A stretch of DNA of 64,000 bases from Thioalkalivibrio halophilus. Lineage in GTDB: Bacteria; Pseudomonadota; Gammaproteobacteria; Ectothiorhodospirales; Ectothiorhodospiraceae. Under the pieces are notes generated by a model. It worked only from the letters and a program-made list of their open reading frames with translations, was not told where the DNA came from and made no database searches. The DNA lies in contig NZ_MUZR01000017.1 in the NCBI RefSeq assembly GCF_001995255.1, forward strand, positions 591 to 64,590. Direction: 5' to 3'. Positions 1,869 to 58,465 of this stretch are shown one piece after another (the first letter of the stretch is position 1; each line of letters opens with the position of its first letter). The position numbers and the translations under genes were made by a program.

Positions 1869-2975
1869 ATGAACCGGGAAATGCGTCCACGCGTGCTGCT
1901 GCTGTCGGCCTATCGTGCCGACAGCCATGCCGCGTGGGCGGACGCCCTGGTGACCGCCTTTCCCGGGATCGACTGGCAGCGCTTCGAGCTGCCCGGGCGC
2001 CATTTCCGCTGGCGCATCCGCGGCAACCCGATCTCGTGGCTGGATGCGCTGGAAGGCGTTCAGGCCGATGCGATCGTCGCCACCTCGATGGTGGATCTGG
2101 CCACGCTGCGAGGCCTGCACCCGACGCTGGCGGCCCTGCCCGCGCTGTACTACTTCCACGAAAACCAGTTCGCCTACCCCGTGGGCGAACAACAGGTGCG
2201 TTCCGTCGAGCCGCAGATGGTCCAGGTGTACGGCGCGCTGTCCGCCGGGCATCTCGCGTTCAATTCGGCCTTCAACCGCGACTCCTTCCTCGACGGCCTG
2301 CGGGCCCTGTTGCGGCGCATGCCCGACGCAGTTCCGCCCGGCGTCCCCGAACGCCTGTCCGAGCGGGCCCGCGTACTCCCGGTCCCGGTCGCGCCGCCGC
2401 GGCGCCCCGACGGGGGAACACCCGAACGTGACCCGGGACTGATCCTGTGGAACCATCGCTGGGAATACGACAAGCGCCCGGAACTCTTCGCCGAGGCGCT
2501 GGAAAGACTGACCGCGCGCGGGCGGGATTTTCGCCTGGCCCTGCTGGGTCCGCGTCCGGAACCGCCCCCCGACGCCCTGCAACGAATACGGCAGCGTTTC
2601 GGTGCATGGATCGTCGCCGACGGGCGCGTGCCACGGGAGGAATACGACGCCCTGCTGCGGCGCGCGGGCATCGTGGTCAGCAGCACCGCACACGAATTCC
2701 AGGGACTGTCGATGCTGGAGGCGAGCGCCGCCGGCGCCCGCCCGCTGGTGCCGGACGCCCTTTGCTACCCGGAGCAGTACCCCCGCGAGTACCGCTATCC
2801 GGCCGGCGACTCCGAGGCCCTGGCCGCGCGACTGGACGGCTGGCTCACCGACGGCCTGCCGCCACCGGTGGACGTCTCGACGCTGGAAACCACCGCGCTG
2901 CTGCCGGCCTGGGCGCGGGCCCTGGAGGACCTGACCGGGAGCGTGCTCAGTCCAGCGCCACCCGCGGTCCGGTGA
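1869..2975 (+). CDS. tRNA-queuosine alpha-mannosyltransferase family glycosyltransferase (DUF3524/QTMAN)
   Basis: A 368-residue GT-B type glycosyltransferase. The family N-terminal motif YYFHENQF lies at 94-101, the WNHRWEYDK segment at 194-202, and the C-terminal nucleotide-sugar loop with FQGLSMLEA at about 278-286. These are hallmarks of the DUF3524 / GTDC1-like family, whose characterised members add mannose from GDP-mannose to queuosine in tRNA-Asp. The bacterial role is assigned by family. It starts 17 nt after the AhpD-like gene but is not clearly linked to it in function. Its last 29 bp overlap tail-to-tail with mltF on the other strand, so both stop codons lie inside the neighbouring gene. 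Full length for the family. Confidence 0.85.
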   Translation: MNREMRPRVLLLSAYRADSHAAWADALVTAFPGIDWQRFELPGRHFRWRIRGNPISWLDALEGVQADAIVATSMVDLATLRGLHPTLAALPALYYFHENQFAYPVGEQQVRSVEPQMVQVYGALSAGHLAFNSAFNRDSFLDGLRALLRRMPDAVPPGVPERLSERARVLPVPVAPPRRPDGGTPERDPGLILWNHRWEYDKRPELFAEALERLTARGRDFRLALLGPRPEPPPDALQRIRQRFGAWIVADGRVPREEYDALLRRAGIVVSSTAHEFQGLSMLEASAAGARPLVPDALCYPEQYPREYRYPAGDSEALAARLDGWLTDGLPPPVDVSTLETTALLPAWARALEDLTGSVLSPAPPAVR

Positions 2976-4392
2976 GCGGCACCGATTCGTCCTCGACGAA
3001 CACCGGCCGGATCACGTCGCGGTAATTGCGGATGCGCTGGACGTAGTACACCGGCTGGTAGCCACGCGCATAGCCGTAACGCAGGTTGCTGTAGTAACGC
3101 TCCTCGGTCAGCAGCGGCAGCACCTCGCGCATGTCCGCCCAGCGGTCGGGATCGCGGCCCAGCTCGCGCGCCAGACGCCGCGCGTCCAGCAGATGCCCGC
3201 GGCCGATGTTGTAACTGGCCAGCGCGAGATAGGTACGGTCCGGTTCCGGGATGTCCTCATCCAGGCGCTCGTGCATCTGGCGCAGGTAACGTGCCCCGCC
3301 GCGAATGCTCTGCTCCGGATCCAGGCGATCCTCGATGCCCAGCTCCTGCGCGGTGCGCTGCGTGAGCATCATCAGGCCGCGCACCCCGGTGGGACTGCGG
3401 GCTTCCGGATCCCAGTGCGACTCCTGGTAGGCCAGCGCGGCCAGCAAGTCGGCGGGCAGTTCGTGCTCGTCCGCGGCCTCCTCGAACACCGGGCGGAAAT
3501 CCGGCAGCCGCTGGTCGATGCGCCGGGTCAGCGCGCGCAGGTCGACGAAATCGAATTCGGGTACATAGGCGTAGTACAGCTCGTCCACCCGGGCACGCGC
3601 CTGCACCCCCTCGTCGGTGTCCATCCAGGCGCGCGCCTGTCCGGCCAGCCCCTCGAAATCGGGGTGCAGGTACCAACCAATCGCGCGGACGTCACTCAGG
3701 TCGAAAGACACCTCCAGATGCGGGAACATCCGCCGGTTGAGCTCGGCGATATGCGAGTCCGCCACGGTGCAGTCCAGTTCGCCCTTCTCCACCGCCGCCA
3801 GCAGTCGCTCGGTGCCCTTCGGCTCGGCGCGATACGGTACCGGCTCCTCCAGCGCCTGCAGCGTTTCCACGTACGCACTGTTGGCGCTCACCGCCAGCTC
3901 CAGGCCGTCGAGATCGGCGGCCTCCGCGGGCTGCGGGCGCTGGTCGCGATGACAGACCACCCGTTCGGTCACCTCGGTGTGCTTCGGCCCCCGCAGAAAA
4001 TCCTCGTCGCGCGAAGCGAGATGCGTGAGGCCGGCCGCGGCCATGTGGACATCCCCCGAAGCCAGGCTCCGCAGCACGGCATCGACCGAATCCACAACCT
4101 TCCATTCAACCTCCCAGCCACGGGCTTCGGCGAAGGCCTCGACCAGATCGTGCTCGGGACCGGCGGTCCGGGTATGGCGGTCGTAGAACCAGGCGGTGGG
4201 TGCGTTGCGGGTGACCACCACCAGTTCGCCCGCTTCCTCCGGATGCGCCAGCGCGGCCGCCTCCACCCCGGGCACCTCGGACTGCCCTTCGCCGGGGCCG
4301 CAGGCCATCAGTATGGCCGCGCCGGCGGCCACCAGGCCCGACCGAGACCAGTGACGTGCATGCAGCGAACGATTGAGCAAGAACGATGACAT
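2947..4392 (-). CDS. mltF: Membrane-bound lytic murein transglycosylase F
   Basis: A 481-residue lipoprotein with MltF architecture. A signal peptide with lipobox LMAC (C31) comes first. A periplasmic amino-acid-binding-like domain (SBP_bac_3 type, about 50-270) follows, then a Slt-type lysozyme-like domain (about 300-440). The catalytic Glu is E324 in YQESHW, followed by the family segment SPTGVRGLMML. The enzyme cleaves peptidoglycan glycan strands to 1,6-anhydro-muropeptides at the outer membrane; in known MltF proteins the first domain regulates activity on muropeptide binding. A good ribosome binding site (GGGAGGG) precedes the ATG. It is monocistronic and converges on the mannosyltransferase with a 29-bp overlap. 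Length fits the family. Confidence 0.95.
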   Translation of the reverse strand: MSSFLLNRSLHARHWSRSGLVAAGAAILMACGPGEGQSEVPGVEAAALAHPEEAGELVVVTRNAPTAWFYDRHTRTAGPEHDLVEAFAEARGWEVEWKVVDSVDAVLRSLASGDVHMAAAGLTHLASRDEDFLRGPKHTEVTERVVCHRDQRPQPAEAADLDGLELAVSANSAYVETLQALEEPVPYRAEPKGTERLLAAVEKGELDCTVADSHIAELNRRMFPHLEVSFDLSDVRAIGWYLHPDFEGLAGQARAWMDTDEGVQARARVDELYYAYVPEFDFVDLRALTRRIDQRLPDFRPVFEEAADEHELPADLLAALAYQESHWDPEARSPTGVRGLMMLTQRTAQELGIEDRLDPEQSIRGGARYLRQMHERLDEDIPEPDRTYLALASYNIGRGHLLDARRLARELGRDPDRWADMREVLPLLTEERYYSNLRYGYARGYQPVYYVQRIRNYRDVIRPVFVEDESVPLTGPRVALD

Positions 4393-21844: not shown

Positions 21845-24298
21845 ATGACCCGACCGACACCCCTGGACGCGGAACGGACCTACCATCGCTGCCCGCCGGA
21901 GCAGCTCGAGTTCGACACCACCGAAGAGCTGGAAGAACTGGAACTCCCCTGCGGCCAGGACCGGCTGCTGCGCGCGCTGGAATTCGGTGCGGGCATGCGC
22001 AGCGCGGGTTTCAACCTGTTCGTGCTCGGCCCCGAGGGCAGCGACCGGCACGACCTGGTGCGCCGTTTTCTCGCCCGCCGCGCGGCCAGCGAGGCGGTCC
22101 CGCCGGACTGGTGCCATGTCTTTAATTTCGACCGGCCGGAACGCCCCCACGCGATTCGCCTGCCGGCCGGCGAAGGACGTCAACTGCGCGATGATCTCGA
22201 GAACCTGGTCGAGGAGATGCGCACCAGCATCCCTGCCGCCTTCGAGAGCGACGAATACCAGGGGCGGCTGCGGGAACTGCAGGAGGAGATGTCCGAACGC
22301 CAGAACGAGGGCGTCCGCGAGGTCCAGGAAGAGGCCAACAAGCACGACATCGAGCTGGTCAGCACCCCCAGCGGCTTCACCTTCGCACCCGTGCGTGACG
22401 GCGAGGTCCTGGACCCCGAGGAATACGAAAAGCTGCCAGAGGAAGAACGCGAGCGCATCGAGCAGAAGGCCGAGGAGCTGCAGAAACAGCTGCAGCAGGC
22501 CATCCAGCAGGTGCCCCGCCTGCGCAAGGAACTGCGGGAGAAGGTCCACTCGCTGAACGAGGAGATGGTGCAGCTGACCCTCGGCGATCCGATTCACGAT
22601 CTGAAGGAGAAGTGGGCGCACCTGCCACGCGTGGCGGAACAGCTCGACGCCATCCACGGCCACGTGGTGGAACACGCGGAGATCTTCCGCGGCGGCCACG
22701 ACGAACACGGCGGGCAGGATGAGCAGAGCGGGCAGGATCACGCGCCCCCGGAAGCGATGCTGGCCCGCTTTCGCGCCAACCTGCTGGTGGACCATGCGGA
22801 AACCGAAGGGGCGCCGGTGATCTACGAGGATCTGCCCAATCACCAGCATCTGACCGGCCAGATTGAACACCACGTGCACAACGGCGCGCTGTACACCGAC
22901 TTCTCGCTGATCCGCGCCGGTGCGCTGCACCATGCCAGCGGCGGCTACCTGATCCTCGACGCCCGGCGAGTGCTGATGCAGCCAATGGCGTGGGACAGCC
23001 TGAAGCGCGTGCTGTTCTCCGGCGAGATCCGCATCGAATCACTGGAGCGGCTCTACGGCCTGGTCAGCACGGTCAGCCTGGAACCCGAGCCGGTCCCGGT
23101 ATCGCCCAAGGTGGTGCTGGTGGGCGACCGCCTGCTGTACTACCTGCTGTCGCATTACGACCCGGACTTCGCCGAGCTGTTCAAGGTCGAGGCCGACTTC
23201 GAGGACGACCTCGAGCGCGACGAGGCCGGTTACGCCCTGTACGCGCGCATGCTCGCCAGCATGGCGCGGCGCGACGAGCTGCGCCCGCTGGACCGCGGCG
23301 CCGTGGCCCGCACCATCGAACACGCCAGCCGTCTGGCCGGGGATCAGACGAAACTCACCGCTCACGACCGCACCCTGCGCGACCTGCTGATGGAGGCCGA
23401 CCACTGGGCGCGTCAGGCAGAGGCCGAAACCATCGGCGCCGCCCACATCGAACGCGCGATCGAGGAACGCATCGAGCGTTCGGCACGCGTGCAGCGGCGC
23501 AGCCTGGAACAGATCCGCCGCGGCACGGTGATGATCGCCACGGAAGGCACGCAGACGGCCCAGGTCAACGGGCTGTCCGTGATGCAGCTGGGCAGCCACC
23601 TGTTCGGACGCCCGATGCGCATCACCGCGACCGCGCGGCCGGGCAAGGGCCAGGTCATCGACATCGAGCGCGAGGCCAGACTGGCCGGGCCGATCCACAG
23701 CAAGAGCGTGATGATCCTTTCACGCTTTCTCGCCAGCCGTTACACCGGGGATGCGGAGCTGTCGCTGTCGGCCAGCCTCGCCTTCGAACAGTCCTACGGC
23801 GGGATCGAGGGCGATTCCGCCTCGGTGGCCGAGATCTGTGCCCTGCTGTCGGCCATCGCACGGATCCCGCTGAAGCAGGCGCTGGCGGTGACCGGCTCGG
23901 TCAACCAGCACGGCGAAGTCCAGGCCGTCGGCGGGGTCAACGAAAAGATCGAGGGGTTCTTCGATGTCTGTCGGGAAGCGGGCGAGATGAACGGCCACGG
24001 CGTGCTCATCCCCGCCAGCAACGTCGAGCACCTGATGCTGCGGCGCGACGTGCGCGAAGCCGTGGCCGCCGGCCACTTCCGCGTGTACCCGCTACGCACG
24101 GTAGACGACGCCATTGGCCTGCTCACCGAGATGTCCCCCGGGGAAGCGGACGCCGATGGCGAGTTCCCGGCGGAGAGCTTCAACCGTGCGGTCGCCGACC
24201 GGCTGGCGACCTTCGCCCGCCTTGCGCGGCATCGCCGGCACGACGACGCGGGCGCCGAGGACGCCGGACCCGTTCCTCGGGCCGAGGACGATGACTGA
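21845..24298 (+). CDS. Lon-family ATP-dependent protease (AAA_32 / LonB-YcbZ type)
   Basis: An 817-residue protease. The N-terminal AAA_32-like region has the strand FNLFVLGPEGSDRHDLV, where a Walker A would sit, but the GK[ST] is replaced (G-S-D-R-H). A long charged helical insertion (about 115-270, Glu/Gln/Arg-rich) follows. The C-terminal Lon protease domain has the Ser-Lys dyad S658 (EGDSASVAE) and K701 (GGVNEKIEGFF). It lacks the N-terminal Lon substrate domain, as in YcbZ/LonH proteins. Role: cytoplasmic protein degradation, substrates unknown. AAGGAGAG precedes the ATG. The stop overlaps the start of the universal stress protein gene, so they form a stress-related pair. Confidence 0.85.
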   Translation: MTRPTPLDAERTYHRCPPEQLEFDTTEELEELELPCGQDRLLRALEFGAGMRSAGFNLFVLGPEGSDRHDLVRRFLARRAASEAVPPDWCHVFNFDRPERPHAIRLPAGEGRQLRDDLENLVEEMRTSIPAAFESDEYQGRLRELQEEMSERQNEGVREVQEEANKHDIELVSTPSGFTFAPVRDGEVLDPEEYEKLPEEERERIEQKAEELQKQLQQAIQQVPRLRKELREKVHSLNEEMVQLTLGDPIHDLKEKWAHLPRVAEQLDAIHGHVVEHAEIFRGGHDEHGGQDEQSGQDHAPPEAMLARFRANLLVDHAETEGAPVIYEDLPNHQHLTGQIEHHVHNGALYTDFSLIRAGALHHASGGYLILDARRVLMQPMAWDSLKRVLFSGEIRIESLERLYGLVSTVSLEPEPVPVSPKVVLVGDRLLYYLLSHYDPDFAELFKVEADFEDDLERDEAGYALYARMLASMARRDELRPLDRGAVARTIEHASRLAGDQTKLTAHDRTLRDLLMEADHWARQAEAETIGAAHIERAIEERIERSARVQRRSLEQIRRGTVMIATEGTQTAQVNGLSVMQLGSHLFGRPMRITATARPGKGQVIDIEREARLAGPIHSKSVMILSRFLASRYTGDAELSLSASLAFEQSYGGIEGDSASVAEICALLSAIARIPLKQALAVTGSVNQHGEVQAVGGVNEKIEGFFDVCREAGEMNGHGVLIPASNVEHLMLRRDVREAVAAGHFRVYPLRTVDDAIGLLTEMSPGEADADGEFPAESFNRAVADRLATFARLARHRRHDDAGAEDAGPVPRAEDDD

Positions 24299-25160
24299 CC
24301 CCGCGGGCACCCAGCCGCTCCCGTCGGCGGAGGCCGGGCGCATCCTGGTCCTGCTCGACGCCTCGCACGCCAGCCAGGCCGCGCTCGAGGCCGCGGCGAC
24401 CCTGGCCGCCACGCTGCAGGGCGAGCTGCAGGCGATCTTTGTCGAGGAGGCCGATCTGCTGCGCAGCGCCGCCTACCCCTTCACCCGCGAGATCGGTTCG
24501 CTCTCCGGGCAGCCGCGGCCACTGGAAACCGGGCTGCTGGAAACCCGCCTGCGGCGCCGCGCCGCCCACCTCCGCCGTGCGGCCGAACAGGCCGCCGCGC
24601 GTGCAAGGATCCACTGCTCGCTCGAGGTCCGCCGCGGATCGGTGCGCCGCGAGGTGCTTGCGCTGACCACCCCGGGTGATTTCCTCGTGCTGGGCAAGAT
24701 CGGATGGTCGGCCGCGACCGGCAGCCGCCTGGGCTCCACCGCGCGCAGCCTGGTCCATGAAGCCCCGGGACGGGTCCACCTCACCGGAACCCGGCCGACA
24801 CGCCCCGACAGCCCGGTCCTGGTGGTGGTCGATGCCCCGGAGACCGCGCACGAAGCGCTCGTCTTCGCCCGCGCCCGGGCCCGCCAGCAAAGGCGCCCCC
24901 TGACCGTGCTGCTCGTCCCGCTGGACGACCCCGACGCCGCGCGGGAGCGGGACCGGGCCCTGAGCGAATGGGTGGCGACCGACGACCCTCCGGTGCGGGT
25001 TCGCTCGCTGCGCTCGAGCGCTCCCCGCGAGCTGCTCCGCACACTGGAACGTCAGCCGGCGGCCGAAGTGGTGCTCGGCCGCCGCAGCCCGCTGCTGGCC
25101 GGCCCGCAGGGCGACGCCCTGCTCGGCGCCCTCGAGCCCCCGGTCACCATCACCCCCTAA
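24291..25160 (+). CDS. Universal stress protein-like, two tandem Usp domains
   Basis: A 289-residue protein that appears to hold two Usp-like alpha/beta halves. The first begins RILVLLDASHASQAALEAAATLA and ends near LVLGKIGWSA. The second begins SPVLVVVDAPETAHEALVFARARA and ends VVLGRRSPLL. The Gly-rich ATP-binding loop is weak in both. It overlaps the Lon-like stop by 8 bp and shares its transcript. The TAA stop (25158-25160) lies within the left end of the inverted-repeat element, so the insertion may have supplied the present stop and changed the tail. Function: stress-related; ligand unknown. Confidence 0.7.
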   Translation: MTDPAGTQPLPSAEAGRILVLLDASHASQAALEAAATLAATLQGELQAIFVEEADLLRSAAYPFTREIGSLSGQPRPLETGLLETRLRRRAAHLRRAAEQAAARARIHCSLEVRRGSVRREVLALTTPGDFLVLGKIGWSAATGSRLGSTARSLVHEAPGRVHLTGTRPTRPDSPVLVVVDAPETAHEALVFARARARQQRRPLTVLLVPLDDPDAARERDRALSEWVATDDPPVRVRSLRSSAPRELLRTLERQPAAEVVLGRRSPLLAGPQGDALLGALEPPVTITP

Positions 25161-25433
25161 GGGAAACACTGATCCATGTACACGCTCGCGTTGGTGCCCC
25201 GGGTTTTCCGAGACAAGGCGCGTCGTGCAGTGGGTAGTGGTTCTACCCGCAAGCGGCGCAACGCCGGATCGGGGAACCCGGGGCCCAACCCCGTAGGGGC
25301 TCGGCCGCTTTTGCGCGCGCACGGCGTTGCGGCTTCCTTGTGCAGAATGACTGCACGGCGGTCGCCGCGCCTTGTTCGCACGCAAAAGCGACTCAAGCGC
25401 GAGCGTGTACATGGATCAGTGTTTCCCTTAGGG
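25155..25433. mobile_element. 279-bp MITE-like element with 36-bp perfect terminal inverted repeats
   Basis: Positions 25155-25190 and 25398-25433 are exact 36-bp inverted copies (outer part CCCTAAGGGAAACACTGATC). The inner sequence is also imperfectly palindromic: blocks such as ACAAGGCGCG, CGTGCAGT and GCAACGCCG recur in opposite orientation, so the whole element could fold into one long hairpin. It has no transposase frame. It fills the gap between the universal stress protein gene and DUF3817. The left end holds the stop codon of the upstream gene. A 15-bp copy of the tip recurs at 58451-58465. Confidence 0.75.
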
Positions 25434-27678: not shown

Positions 27679-28797
27679 TTGATACAGCTCAGGACGAGTT
27701 CCGACTCGAGGACAGAAAACCTTGAGGTCATGTTGCGGGATCTCGAGGCCGACCCGTCGATTGGCGGCATCCTGCTGATGGTCGCCCACGGCCATTCCCG
27801 GCCCGAACCCGCGGCCTGGACCGAATTACTGGGGACGCGGCAATGCCCCGTTTTCGGCGGCGAGTTCCCCGGCCTGGTGACACACGACGGTGTCATGGAG
27901 AGCGGCGCGATCGCCGTGGGGCTTCCCCGGTTCTCCCGGGTCGCCCGCATCGATGCGCTGTCGCAGCCCGAATGCGACCCGCCCGAAGCGCTCGAAAGGG
28001 CCTTCCCGGATCCACCGGGCCACGGCCTGCTGTTCGTCTTCGTCGACGGACTGGCGGCCGGCATTGATCGCCTGGTCAATGCACTGTACGACCATTTCGG
28101 GCTGGAAACCGGCTATATCGGTGGCGGTTGCGGCAATGCTCGCTTACAGCCCGGCCCGGTGGTACTGGATTCCGAAGGGCTGCACGCCGACAGTGCAGTG
28201 GTAGCCTGGCTGGATCTGCCTGCCGGCATCGGCGTGGCCCACGGCTGGGAGCCGATATCCGCCCCCCTCAAGGTGACATCCGCCAGCAGCAACACCATAC
28301 ACGGCCTTGACTGGAAACCGGCCGCTTCCGTATGGGGCCGGATTGTGCAGGAACACGGCGGAGAGGCCCCCACACCGGCCTCGTTCACCCGCCTCGCGCC
28401 CGCCTACCCCTTCGGCATCGGCCGCATTGGCGGCGAGCTGGTGGTGCGCGACCCGATTCAGCTCGAAGGAAATGCACTGGTCTGTGTCGGCGAGGTGCCG
28501 GAGGGGGCGTTCGTGCGGGTCCTGACCGGCAATCGCCACACGCTTCTCAACGCAGCCCGCAAGGCACGGGAACGCAGCCGGGAAGGCGCGGAAGAATTCA
28601 CTCCGACCATCCGCCTGACCATGGACTGCATATCGCGGGCCCATTTTCTCGGACGGGCTTACGACCAGGAGGTCGCAACCCTCTGCGAGGAGGACACCCT
28701 GCCGCTGGCGGGCGCGCTTTCGCTGGGCGAGATCGCGAACTGTGGCGAGGAATCACTCGAGTTCTACAACAAGACCGTAACGGCAGGCCTGCTGTGA
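27679..28797 (+). CDS. FIST domain sensory protein
   Basis: A 372-residue protein with FIST N and FIST C domains. It has a Gly-rich sensory fold with GGILLMVAHGHSRPEP, VFGGEFPGLVTHDG and YIGGGCGNA in the first half. In the second half are MDCISRAHFLG and a C-terminal GEIANCGEESLEFYNKTV, the FIST_C signature (G-E-I-x4-G plus NKT). FIST domains are predicted to sense small ligands such as amino acids. The TTG start at 27679 is favoured by AAGGAG 7 nt upstream. It ends in a GTGA overlap with a GGDEF/EAL gene, so it likely provides sensory input to c-di-GMP turnover. Confidence 0.88.
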   Translation: MIQLRTSSDSRTENLEVMLRDLEADPSIGGILLMVAHGHSRPEPAAWTELLGTRQCPVFGGEFPGLVTHDGVMESGAIAVGLPRFSRVARIDALSQPECDPPEALERAFPDPPGHGLLFVFVDGLAAGIDRLVNALYDHFGLETGYIGGGCGNARLQPGPVVLDSEGLHADSAVVAWLDLPAGIGVAHGWEPISAPLKVTSASSNTIHGLDWKPAASVWGRIVQEHGGEAPTPASFTRLAPAYPFGIGRIGGELVVRDPIQLEGNALVCVGEVPEGAFVRVLTGNRHTLLNAARKARERSREGAEEFTPTIRLTMDCISRAHFLGRAYDQEVATLCEEDTLPLAGALSLGEIANCGEESLEFYNKTVTAGLL

Positions 28798-30584
28798 GCC
28801 ACAACCGTCTGTACGAATTTGAAGTGCTGCACGAAATCGCGATGGCGATCGGCGTCAGCCTCGATCGTGACGGGATGCTCGGGCACTGCTTGCCCCTGTT
28901 CCTGCGCCGTCTCCGCTGCACCTCGGTCACCGTCCTCGCCGACGGGCCACGAATCGTGATGTCGGCCCCCCGCAGCGTGGACATCCGGTCGCTGCTGCCG
29001 CAGCTGGACGAAGCCCTGAGTTCGGACGATCCGCTGCCGGTCCCGGCTCTGCTCCGGAATGACCGCCATTATTATCTGTGGCGCCTGGAGGGCTTCGGTG
29101 CTCTCGTCCTGGGGCGTGCCCGACCCTTCAGCCAGGATCTGGTGCAGGAGATCGCCCAGCTGGCCAAACGCCTCGCCGTTGCCCTGCATGCCTGCGAGGA
29201 GCATGCCCGATTGAACGATCTGGTCCGCGAGACCACGTGGCAGGCCCACCACGATGACCTGACCGGTCTGCATGGCCGACGCTTCTTCCTTGAGCGGCTG
29301 GACACGCTCGGCTCCACCGCCCCGGATGCCGAGAAGGGGTTTCACGCCCTGATCTATCTGGACCTCGACCAGTTCAAGATCGTCAACGACACCGCCGGGC
29401 ACATGGCCGGCGACCAGCTGCTGCAGGAACTCGGCGCCCGCCTGCGGTCCGCGGGTTGCGAGGCGGATACCATCGCCCGGCTGGGCGGTGACGAATTCGG
29501 CATCCTGCTCGCCGGCACAACCGAGGACGGCGCCCGGGGCGCCGCCGACGCACTGATCCGGGTCGTCCGCACCTACCGCTTCGAATGGCAGGAGCGTCAG
29601 TTCCGCATCGGCGCCAGCGCCGGCATCGCACTGTTCGACGGCAGCGAGAATGACGTGCGCGACATCCTGGCCGCAGCGGATACCGCCTGCTACATGGCCA
29701 AGGAACGGGGGGGCGGCCGGGTACAGACCTACACCACCCACGACGGCGAGCTGTCCCGCCGTCACGACGAGATGCACTGGGCCGCGCACCTCAGCGGCGT
29801 GATCGAACGCGGCGGCTTTGCCCTGTACGCCCAGCGCATCCAGAGTCTGGAGGACGATCCGGCAGGGCGCATTGAGGTTCTGGTGCGCATGCAGGACAGG
29901 CCCGACGAGGAACCTGTCCTGCCGGGGCAGTTCATCCCCGCCGCGGAACGCTTCGGCCTGATGGGTGCCATCGACCGCTGGGTGGTCACCCGCACCCTTG
30001 CACTGCGCGACGAGCCGGAACGCAGCGGCCATCGTGTCGCATGGAACATCAACCTTTCCGGGGCCTCGCTCAGCGATCCCGGATTCCTGCGCTTCGTGAC
30101 CGGGAAGATCCGCGACCACGTACCAGAACCGGGAACGATCTGCTTCGAGATCACCGAGACGGCGGTGGTGGACAATCTGGAGGCCGTGTCCGCATTCATC
30201 CACGAGCTGCGGGGGCTGGGCTGCGAGTTCGCGCTGGACGACTTCGGCAGCGGCCTGTCGTCCTTCGCCTACCTGCAACAACTGCCGGTGGATTATCTGA
30301 AAATCGATGGCCGGTTCGTCCGGGACATTGCATCCAGCCCCTCCGATCGAGCGATCGTGGAGTCCATCCATCATATCGGCGGAACCCTGGGACTGCGCAC
30401 CATCGCCGAATACGTCGAGGACACCACCGCCATGGAGATCCTGCGGGAGGTGGGCATCGAATTCGGCCAGGGCTTCCACATCCATCAACCCGAACCGCTG
30501 GAACATCTGCTGTCCAGCGGGGAGGACGACACCGGCGCACCGGACATTGCCCCGATGCCCGGTGCCGTCCACCGGGTTCAGTAG
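28794..30584 (+). CDS. GGDEF-EAL protein with GAF-like sensor; cyclase active, EAL variant
   Basis: A 596-residue cytoplasmic c-di-GMP enzyme. Residues 1-150 form a GAF-like input region. The GGDEF domain has an intact G231-G-D-E-F235 loop (RLGGDEFGILL), so diguanylate cyclase activity is expected; no RxxD inhibitory site is seen upstream. The EAL domain has E361-V-L in place of E-A-L, but keeps ITETAVV, DDFGSGLSSF, YLKIDGRF and an acidic AEYVED, so phosphodiesterase activity is possible. It starts at GTG inside the FIST stop codon and so is translationally coupled to it. It overlaps the convergent DsrE-like gene by 7 bp. Confidence 0.92.
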   Translation: MSHNRLYEFEVLHEIAMAIGVSLDRDGMLGHCLPLFLRRLRCTSVTVLADGPRIVMSAPRSVDIRSLLPQLDEALSSDDPLPVPALLRNDRHYYLWRLEGFGALVLGRARPFSQDLVQEIAQLAKRLAVALHACEEHARLNDLVRETTWQAHHDDLTGLHGRRFFLERLDTLGSTAPDAEKGFHALIYLDLDQFKIVNDTAGHMAGDQLLQELGARLRSAGCEADTIARLGGDEFGILLAGTTEDGARGAADALIRVVRTYRFEWQERQFRIGASAGIALFDGSENDVRDILAAADTACYMAKERGGGRVQTYTTHDGELSRRHDEMHWAAHLSGVIERGGFALYAQRIQSLEDDPAGRIEVLVRMQDRPDEEPVLPGQFIPAAERFGLMGAIDRWVVTRTLALRDEPERSGHRVAWNINLSGASLSDPGFLRFVTGKIRDHVPEPGTICFEITETAVVDNLEAVSAFIHELRGLGCEFALDDFGSGLSSFAYLQQLPVDYLKIDGRFVRDIASSPSDRAIVESIHHIGGTLGLRTIAEYVEDTTAMEILREVGIEFGQGFHIHQPEPLEHLLSSGEDDTGAPDIAPMPGAVHRVQ

Positions 30585-57375: not shown

Positions 57376-57458
57376 GGAGCCGGGGACGGGTCTCCCGGAA
57401 AACCCGGGCCACCAGTGCGAATGTGCACATTGCCCGGCGTTTCCCTAGACTGCGCCGC

Positions 57459-58450: not shown

Positions 58451-58465
58451 AGGGAAACACTGATC
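58451..58465 (+). repeat. 15-bp copy of the inverted-repeat element tip
   Basis: AGGGAAACACTGATC here is identical to the outer tip of the element at 25155-25433 (copy at 25160-25174, inverted at the other end). Its end overlaps the TGA stop of the BCCT gene. Beyond the 15 bp the sequences diverge. It may be a relic of an excised element or a shared target-like motif. Confidence 0.6.

Follow-up and report, generated by a model that had tools for sequence, protein, structure and literature searches.

The segment 25162–25426 of the window (the whole stretch of 64,000 nucleotides of Thioalkalivibrio halophilus DNA that was analysed) is one copy of a gene-less MITE which, in the collections searched, is restricted to Thioalkalivibrio. 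It represents a new MITE family with an unusual, exchangeable interior. Both the distribution of this family and the existence of an insertion sequence (IS) with matching ends are firm observations. In our view it is very probably a non-autonomous palindromic element, mobilised in trans by an IS5-family transposase, whose interior is replaced by ectopic gene conversion after insertion.

In the mechanism suggested by the sequence comparisons, an IS5-family DDE transposase would recognise the terminal ~17 bp of the MITE (GGAAACRCTGATCAATG) in trans and insert it at YTAR-type sites, namely CTAG, TTAA or CTNAG. After insertion the ends would evolve together with their locus, and the interior, consisting of two hairpin arms and three exchangeable cassettes, would be replaced by sequence of other copies via ectopic gene conversion.

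Extent and distribution of the element

A repeat search of the window returned two arms of 36 nt, 25155–25190 and 25398–25433, which are 100% complementary, as stated in the original prediction of a 279-bp palindromic element at 25155–25433. The palindrome as such stands, but the comparison of copies with different flanks reduces the element proper to 265 bp (GGAAACACTGATC...GATCAGTGTTTCC, no strand assigned), since the outermost 7 bp on either side, CCCTAAG on the left and CTTAGGG on the right, belong to the flank. The terminal inverted repeats at 25162–25190 (plus strand; first ~17 bp matching the IS5-family end) and 25398–25426 (minus strand) are thus 29 bp long and exact inverted copies of each other. 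They are bordered by the target-type flanks CTAAG (25157–25161) and CTTAG (25427–25431), both read on the plus strand. Further inside, inverted pairs were found at 25187–25211/25269–25293 (76%) and 25306–25322/25374–25390 (88%). The absence of a transposase was also borne out, the reading frames overlapping the 265 bp being mechanical. Elsewhere in the window we found a degraded end fragment of the same family (57393–57446, minus strand, 78% over 54 bp) and, as an end-motif match, a solitary end sequence of 14 bp, GGGAAACACTGATC, that has no partner (58452–58465, plus strand).

The reading frame of the universal stress protein gene (a name taken over from the earlier annotation; 24114–25160, plus strand) ends in the left flank. 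It had been proposed that the left tip of the element carries the stop codon of this gene and that the insertion truncated the protein or supplied its terminator. The stop codon, TAA at 25158–25160, however lies within CTAAG and adjoins the element from outside. In addition, an element-free ortholog in genome G012, 92% identical, terminates with VTITP-stop at the same residue, with TAG for TAA, so that the protein was not truncated by the insertion and does not owe its stop codon to it. A terminator-like site was not found by scanning, which leaves the third proposal unsupported. The spacer behind the G012 gene differs, and the exact sequence before insertion is not recoverable from it; this spacer contains an extra ~750 bp (L216, ~2300–3050) that are absent in the window and apparently carry a frame on the opposite strand. 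A general preference of insertions for stop codons was considered and rejected: a junction TAA or TAG closes a frame of at least 100 codons at 58 of 144 sites, compared with 56 and 33 in control frames.

In the genome of the window, a similarity search identified eight full copies together with several fragments, and the end motif gave 35 matches against none for the reversed control. Among 58 genomes searched, the MITE is present in 16 of 30 from Thioalkalivibrio and in none of the 28 from outside the genus. Scanning a 23-base end motif over 84,980 species returned matches only in Thioalkalivibrio records, there was no match among the PLSDB plasmids, and no published Thioalkalivibrio MITE was found in the literature searched. 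After removal of two duplicates (one genome under two names), our collection comprises 195 distinct full copies at 152 independent sites, dispersed in unrelated flanks. The search of the genome and its relatives proposed in the original prediction has thus yielded many further copies, and orthologous loci are not all alike. For annotation this means that the MITE accounts for many of the repeated hairpins beside genes in Thioalkalivibrio.

At one locus of the window's genome (L006) a second element end, GTGTTTCCCTAGGGAAACAC, abuts a full copy (G000:C28:28512–28555 beside 28548–28836), an arrangement that looks as if one copy had inserted into the border CTAG of another.

Candidate helper and insertion sites

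The sole DDE_Tnp_1 match in the genome of the window is a transposase remnant (C62:17506–17700) lying just inside a degraded MITE-type end at C62:17326. Using the protein of this remnant as query, a complete IS of ~1200 bp was found in relatives; its transposase of 321 amino acids belongs to the IS5 family (NF033581, E 2e-95; DDE_Tnp_1 and DUF772). The start of the IS, GGAAACRCTGATCAATG, matches that of the MITE, and the two share the YTAR target and ~17 bp at the terminus; past these ~17 bp no similarity was seen by inspection of the sequences. MITE status does not depend on an interior derived from the IS by deletion. IS copies are flanked by 4-bp duplications (CTAG, GTAG and TAAG), the latter two of which are non-palindromic. 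Of the 16 genomes that carry the MITE, 6 contain the IS or a remnant of it, and none of the other 14 Thioalkalivibrio genomes has either, so that an IS with the same ends, one of the checks proposed at the outset, was found in carriers only. In the MITE copies L191 and L183 both ends are similar to the second end of the IS (GGAGACRCTGATTTAAT in some IS copies), and most MITE copies have the first-type IS end at both termini; the MITE ends thus give the impression of one IS end duplicated in inverted form.

This IS5-family element is probably the helper of the MITE. The original prediction was right to see a MITE here, and the idea that the element is mobilised in trans gains support from its many copies, from an IS with the same ends and the same target, and from orthologous sites that are free of it. 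An intact helper was not found in the genome of the window, a draft of 97 contigs of a kind that can lose repeats, and since nothing but the transposase remnant was found there, the window copy is probably no longer moving.

Exact direct repeats of 4–5 bp flank the element at 60 of the 152 independent sites (29 by shuffling), mostly CTAG (40) and TTAA (13). About 60% of the sites lack exact repeats, and the window copy is among them: its right flank CTTAG is one base off a 5-bp direct copy of CTAAG, being also the reverse complement of the latter, and the pair is one substitution away from a 5-bp CTNAG duplication, a type which further empty sites fit as well. A clean empty site, one of several at orthologous loci and likewise looked for at the suggestion of the original prediction, is provided by L191 and L272 (flanks 97% identical), which show one CTAG when empty and two when filled.

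On its two sides the element is almost invariably bordered by AG...CT or AA...TT, bases that are complementary to each other (mutual information 0.75 versus 0.07 when permuted), and this AR...YT complementarity holds even at sites with a differing target. At 46 sites the right outer bases are other than AG or AA, and in only 4 of these are they repeated in the left inner bases. Several empty sites read CTGG, and the sequence left of the filled site is then CTAG, CTTG or CCAG. A simple 4-bp duplication does not explain these complementary borders; the outermost two bases either travel with the element or are overwritten by later conversion.

Avoidance of genes beyond the choice of target was rejected as an additional factor. 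Long frames contain 29% of the insertions, 21% of YTAR sites and 66% of random positions; insertions are thus placed like other YTAR sites, and their intergenic bias stems from where YTAR occurs.

A separate observation concerns the orthologous site of L317 (G026) and L312 (G022), on the minus strand at about base 275 of the L317 reverse complement, where the full element of one strain is matched in the other by no more than CTAG-GGGAACACTGATTAGTGTTCCC-CTAG, a palindrome of 22 bp left after loss of the whole interior.

These sites also bear on whether the palindrome might simply be an immobile host terminator or extragenic palindrome, as its long GC-rich hairpin, which follows immediately on a stop codon, would lead one to expect. 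However, it has defined boundaries with target-type repeats, orthologous sites without it were found, an IS with the same ends exists and there is no T-run, which makes such an explanation scarcely credible.

Fold of the element and probable exchange of its interior

The region 25155–25433 folds with energy z-scores of −12.5 (DNA) and −16.4 (RNA), and none of 200 shuffled sequences folds as well. The minimum-energy fold comprises an outer stem from which two hairpin arms project, with a small hairpin in the centre between them. The inner blocks do mirror each other, as had been noticed, but instead of the single long hairpin envisaged, both the energy minimum and covariation favour an outer stem with arms. 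With approximate limits and no strand assigned, the left arm (25193–25284) is a long hairpin with the inner hairpin GGTAGTGGTTCTACC and cassette site A near 25250, the central hairpin CCCC-GTA-GGGG (25286–25300) is the short form of cassette site B, which in other copies holds a variable loop of ~17 nt, and the right arm (25301–25392) contains the inner hairpin GTGCAGAATGACTGCAC and cassette site C, here TTTT near 25309. All three cassettes of the window copy are thus of the short form.

In an alignment of 63 distinct copies, 98% of the cells at paired positions are paired, and both partners are changed in 28 of 86 predicted pairs, compared with 9.0 in shuffles. The alignment had itself served to derive the structure, however, which builds in part of the excess over slid controls, and the shuffles ignore the kinship of copies. 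Ten of the pairs changed on both sides fall in helices 2–4 of the left arm (defined by RNAalifold and pair counts), which supports the arms beyond the outer stem.

The two ends of the same copy are on average 94.9% identical and closer to each other than to the ends of other copies, with few mismatches between them at position 13 (29 versus 102 expected) and position 14 (16 versus 90). Between shared insertions, however, 83 changes affect one end and only 2 both ends. In-place correction within the hairpin was therefore rejected as the main source of matching ends, and since changes after insertion are single-ended, the matched ends are mostly older than the insertion.

The strong covariation of pairs might also suggest that the element persists because it has its own function, as a structured RNA or DNA whose junction bears switchable hairpin heads and whose mobility is secondary. 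Near-invariant motifs outside the stems, e.g. CAAGGCGCG and CGCAACG, would be in line with this, as would cassette loops that are far more variable than the remaining element. However, Rfam gave no match at the gathering threshold or at E<=1, the scan for promoters and terminators found no such site, presence at orthologous sites is patchy, about half of the genus yielded no copy of the MITE, and its insertion sites resemble ordinary YTAR sites. We therefore consider such a function improbable. Slightly less improbable, but still doubtful, is a modular structured nucleic acid with a conserved junction and three fast-evolving hairpin heads, which a process that is either dedicated or triggered by structure would swap between loci; each genome would then carry a reshuffled repertoire of variants.

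The lengths of the copies cluster at 265, 280, 295 and 310 bp because the sites A, B and C each hold either a short segment or one that is ~15 nt longer and has a variable loop; all eight combinations of states were seen. Between random copies the cassette loops differ by 0.19–0.27 per site, compared with mostly 0.04–0.12 in the rest of the element. At constant length, loops A, B and C are two to three times more variable than most of the element, and many of them hold short AT-rich near-palindromes, e.g. CATTGAATG and TTGATCAA.

When insertions were grouped by their flanks, 35 were found to be shared between strains (37 minus two clusters from one genome under two names). In nineteen of them the strains carry different cassette states despite agreement of the ends and flanks. 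Relative to random copies, the divergence at shared insertions is mostly 0.5–1.1 inside but only 0.17–0.29 over the outer 45 and 27 positions. The interior is nearer to a non-orthologous copy than to the ortholog in 47 of 78 copies, the ends in only 19 of 78 (four duplicates taken out). Copies of the same genome are no closer as donors than copies elsewhere, the copy sets being incomplete. This pattern points to an interior that is swapped among dispersed copies by gene conversion. Since homology between copies stops at the border of the element, conversion would be expected to spare the ends, as is observed. At the shared sites, ends and flanks would thus record descent and interiors exchange, which makes the tracts directly mappable.

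It could be argued that the shared sites arose by independent insertion into the same target in different strains, as the target preference permits reuse of a CTAG. Yet private end variants occur at shared sites (GATGAAT/ATTCATC in L075, L108 and L122) and the ends there are about five times more alike than those of random copies, so that we regard this as very improbable.

A local mechanism, such as template switching in the hairpin or the insertion and loss of loops, would account for the differences without exchange between copies. Some pairs indeed differ almost solely in one cassette (L136/L213, 98.7% identical otherwise, and L082/L126), and the long cassette of site A is similar to that of site C when one of the two is inverted. 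However, a short cassette and a long one (TTTT versus CCGTTGTTATCAAAAACGGG) are alternative sequences and not simple deletions, for which templated exchange is the simplest reading. Several pairs differ moreover across long interior tracts with their ends agreeing, and interiors are often nearer to other copies. A purely local origin is thus unlikely, though it deserves more weight than the other alternatives, and ectopic gene conversion is the reading that we prefer.

Breakage by canonical SbcCD was considered as a trigger of conversion but is not supported. Canonical SbcCD was not found in the draft genome of the window, and no SbcD reached the family cut-off there, which makes the tolerance of long palindromes understandable; the only SbcD-like nuclease found is diverged (L373, G000:C9; 32 bits versus a cut-off of 78), with an ATPase-like frame next to it. 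The family also offers a natural system for the question of how genomes tolerate many palindromes of ~265 bp.

Comparison with known palindromic elements

Dispersed palindromes are also formed by REPINs and by GTAG/CGTC palindromic repeats (PMC3116915, PMC3733652), and one such family, the GTAG elements, is listed for Thioalkalivibrio (PMC3733652). Those elements, however, are built of REP units of 20–40 bp, whereas the present one has 265 bp, IS5-type ends and a YTAR target. An identity with REPINs or REP sequences was rejected, as the element is not built of GTAG- or CGTC-tagged units and has other ends and a DDE-type candidate helper.

QMITE1 of Coxiella burnetii resembles the Thioalkalivibrio element, according to the parts of its description considered here (PMC5896051), in being palindromic, with a very stable predicted fold, many divergent copies and no relatives in other genomes. 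It differs in its unrelated host and in direct repeats of 2–4 bp of other composition, and exchangeable cassettes do not appear in those parts of the description.

Prokaryotic MITEs mobilised by insertion sequences, including those of the IS5 family, have been reviewed (PMC10969869). The Thioalkalivibrio element agrees with them in being short, gene-less and multicopy, in its IS-type target and stable stem-loop folding, and in sharing terminal inverted repeats with an IS of the same lineage. Gene conversion is a term absent from that review, and a report of interlocus conversion among bacterial MITEs was not found in the literature searched. The element is GC-rich, unlike the AT-rich MITEs described there, and both its ends reproduce one IS end almost perfectly in inverted arrangement, whereas the two ends of the IS itself differ. 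It is further set apart by an interior of two related hairpin arms with cassettes that are probably exchanged between copies. To be a MITE is ordinary as such, and the interest of the element lies in its exchangeable, co-varying interior.
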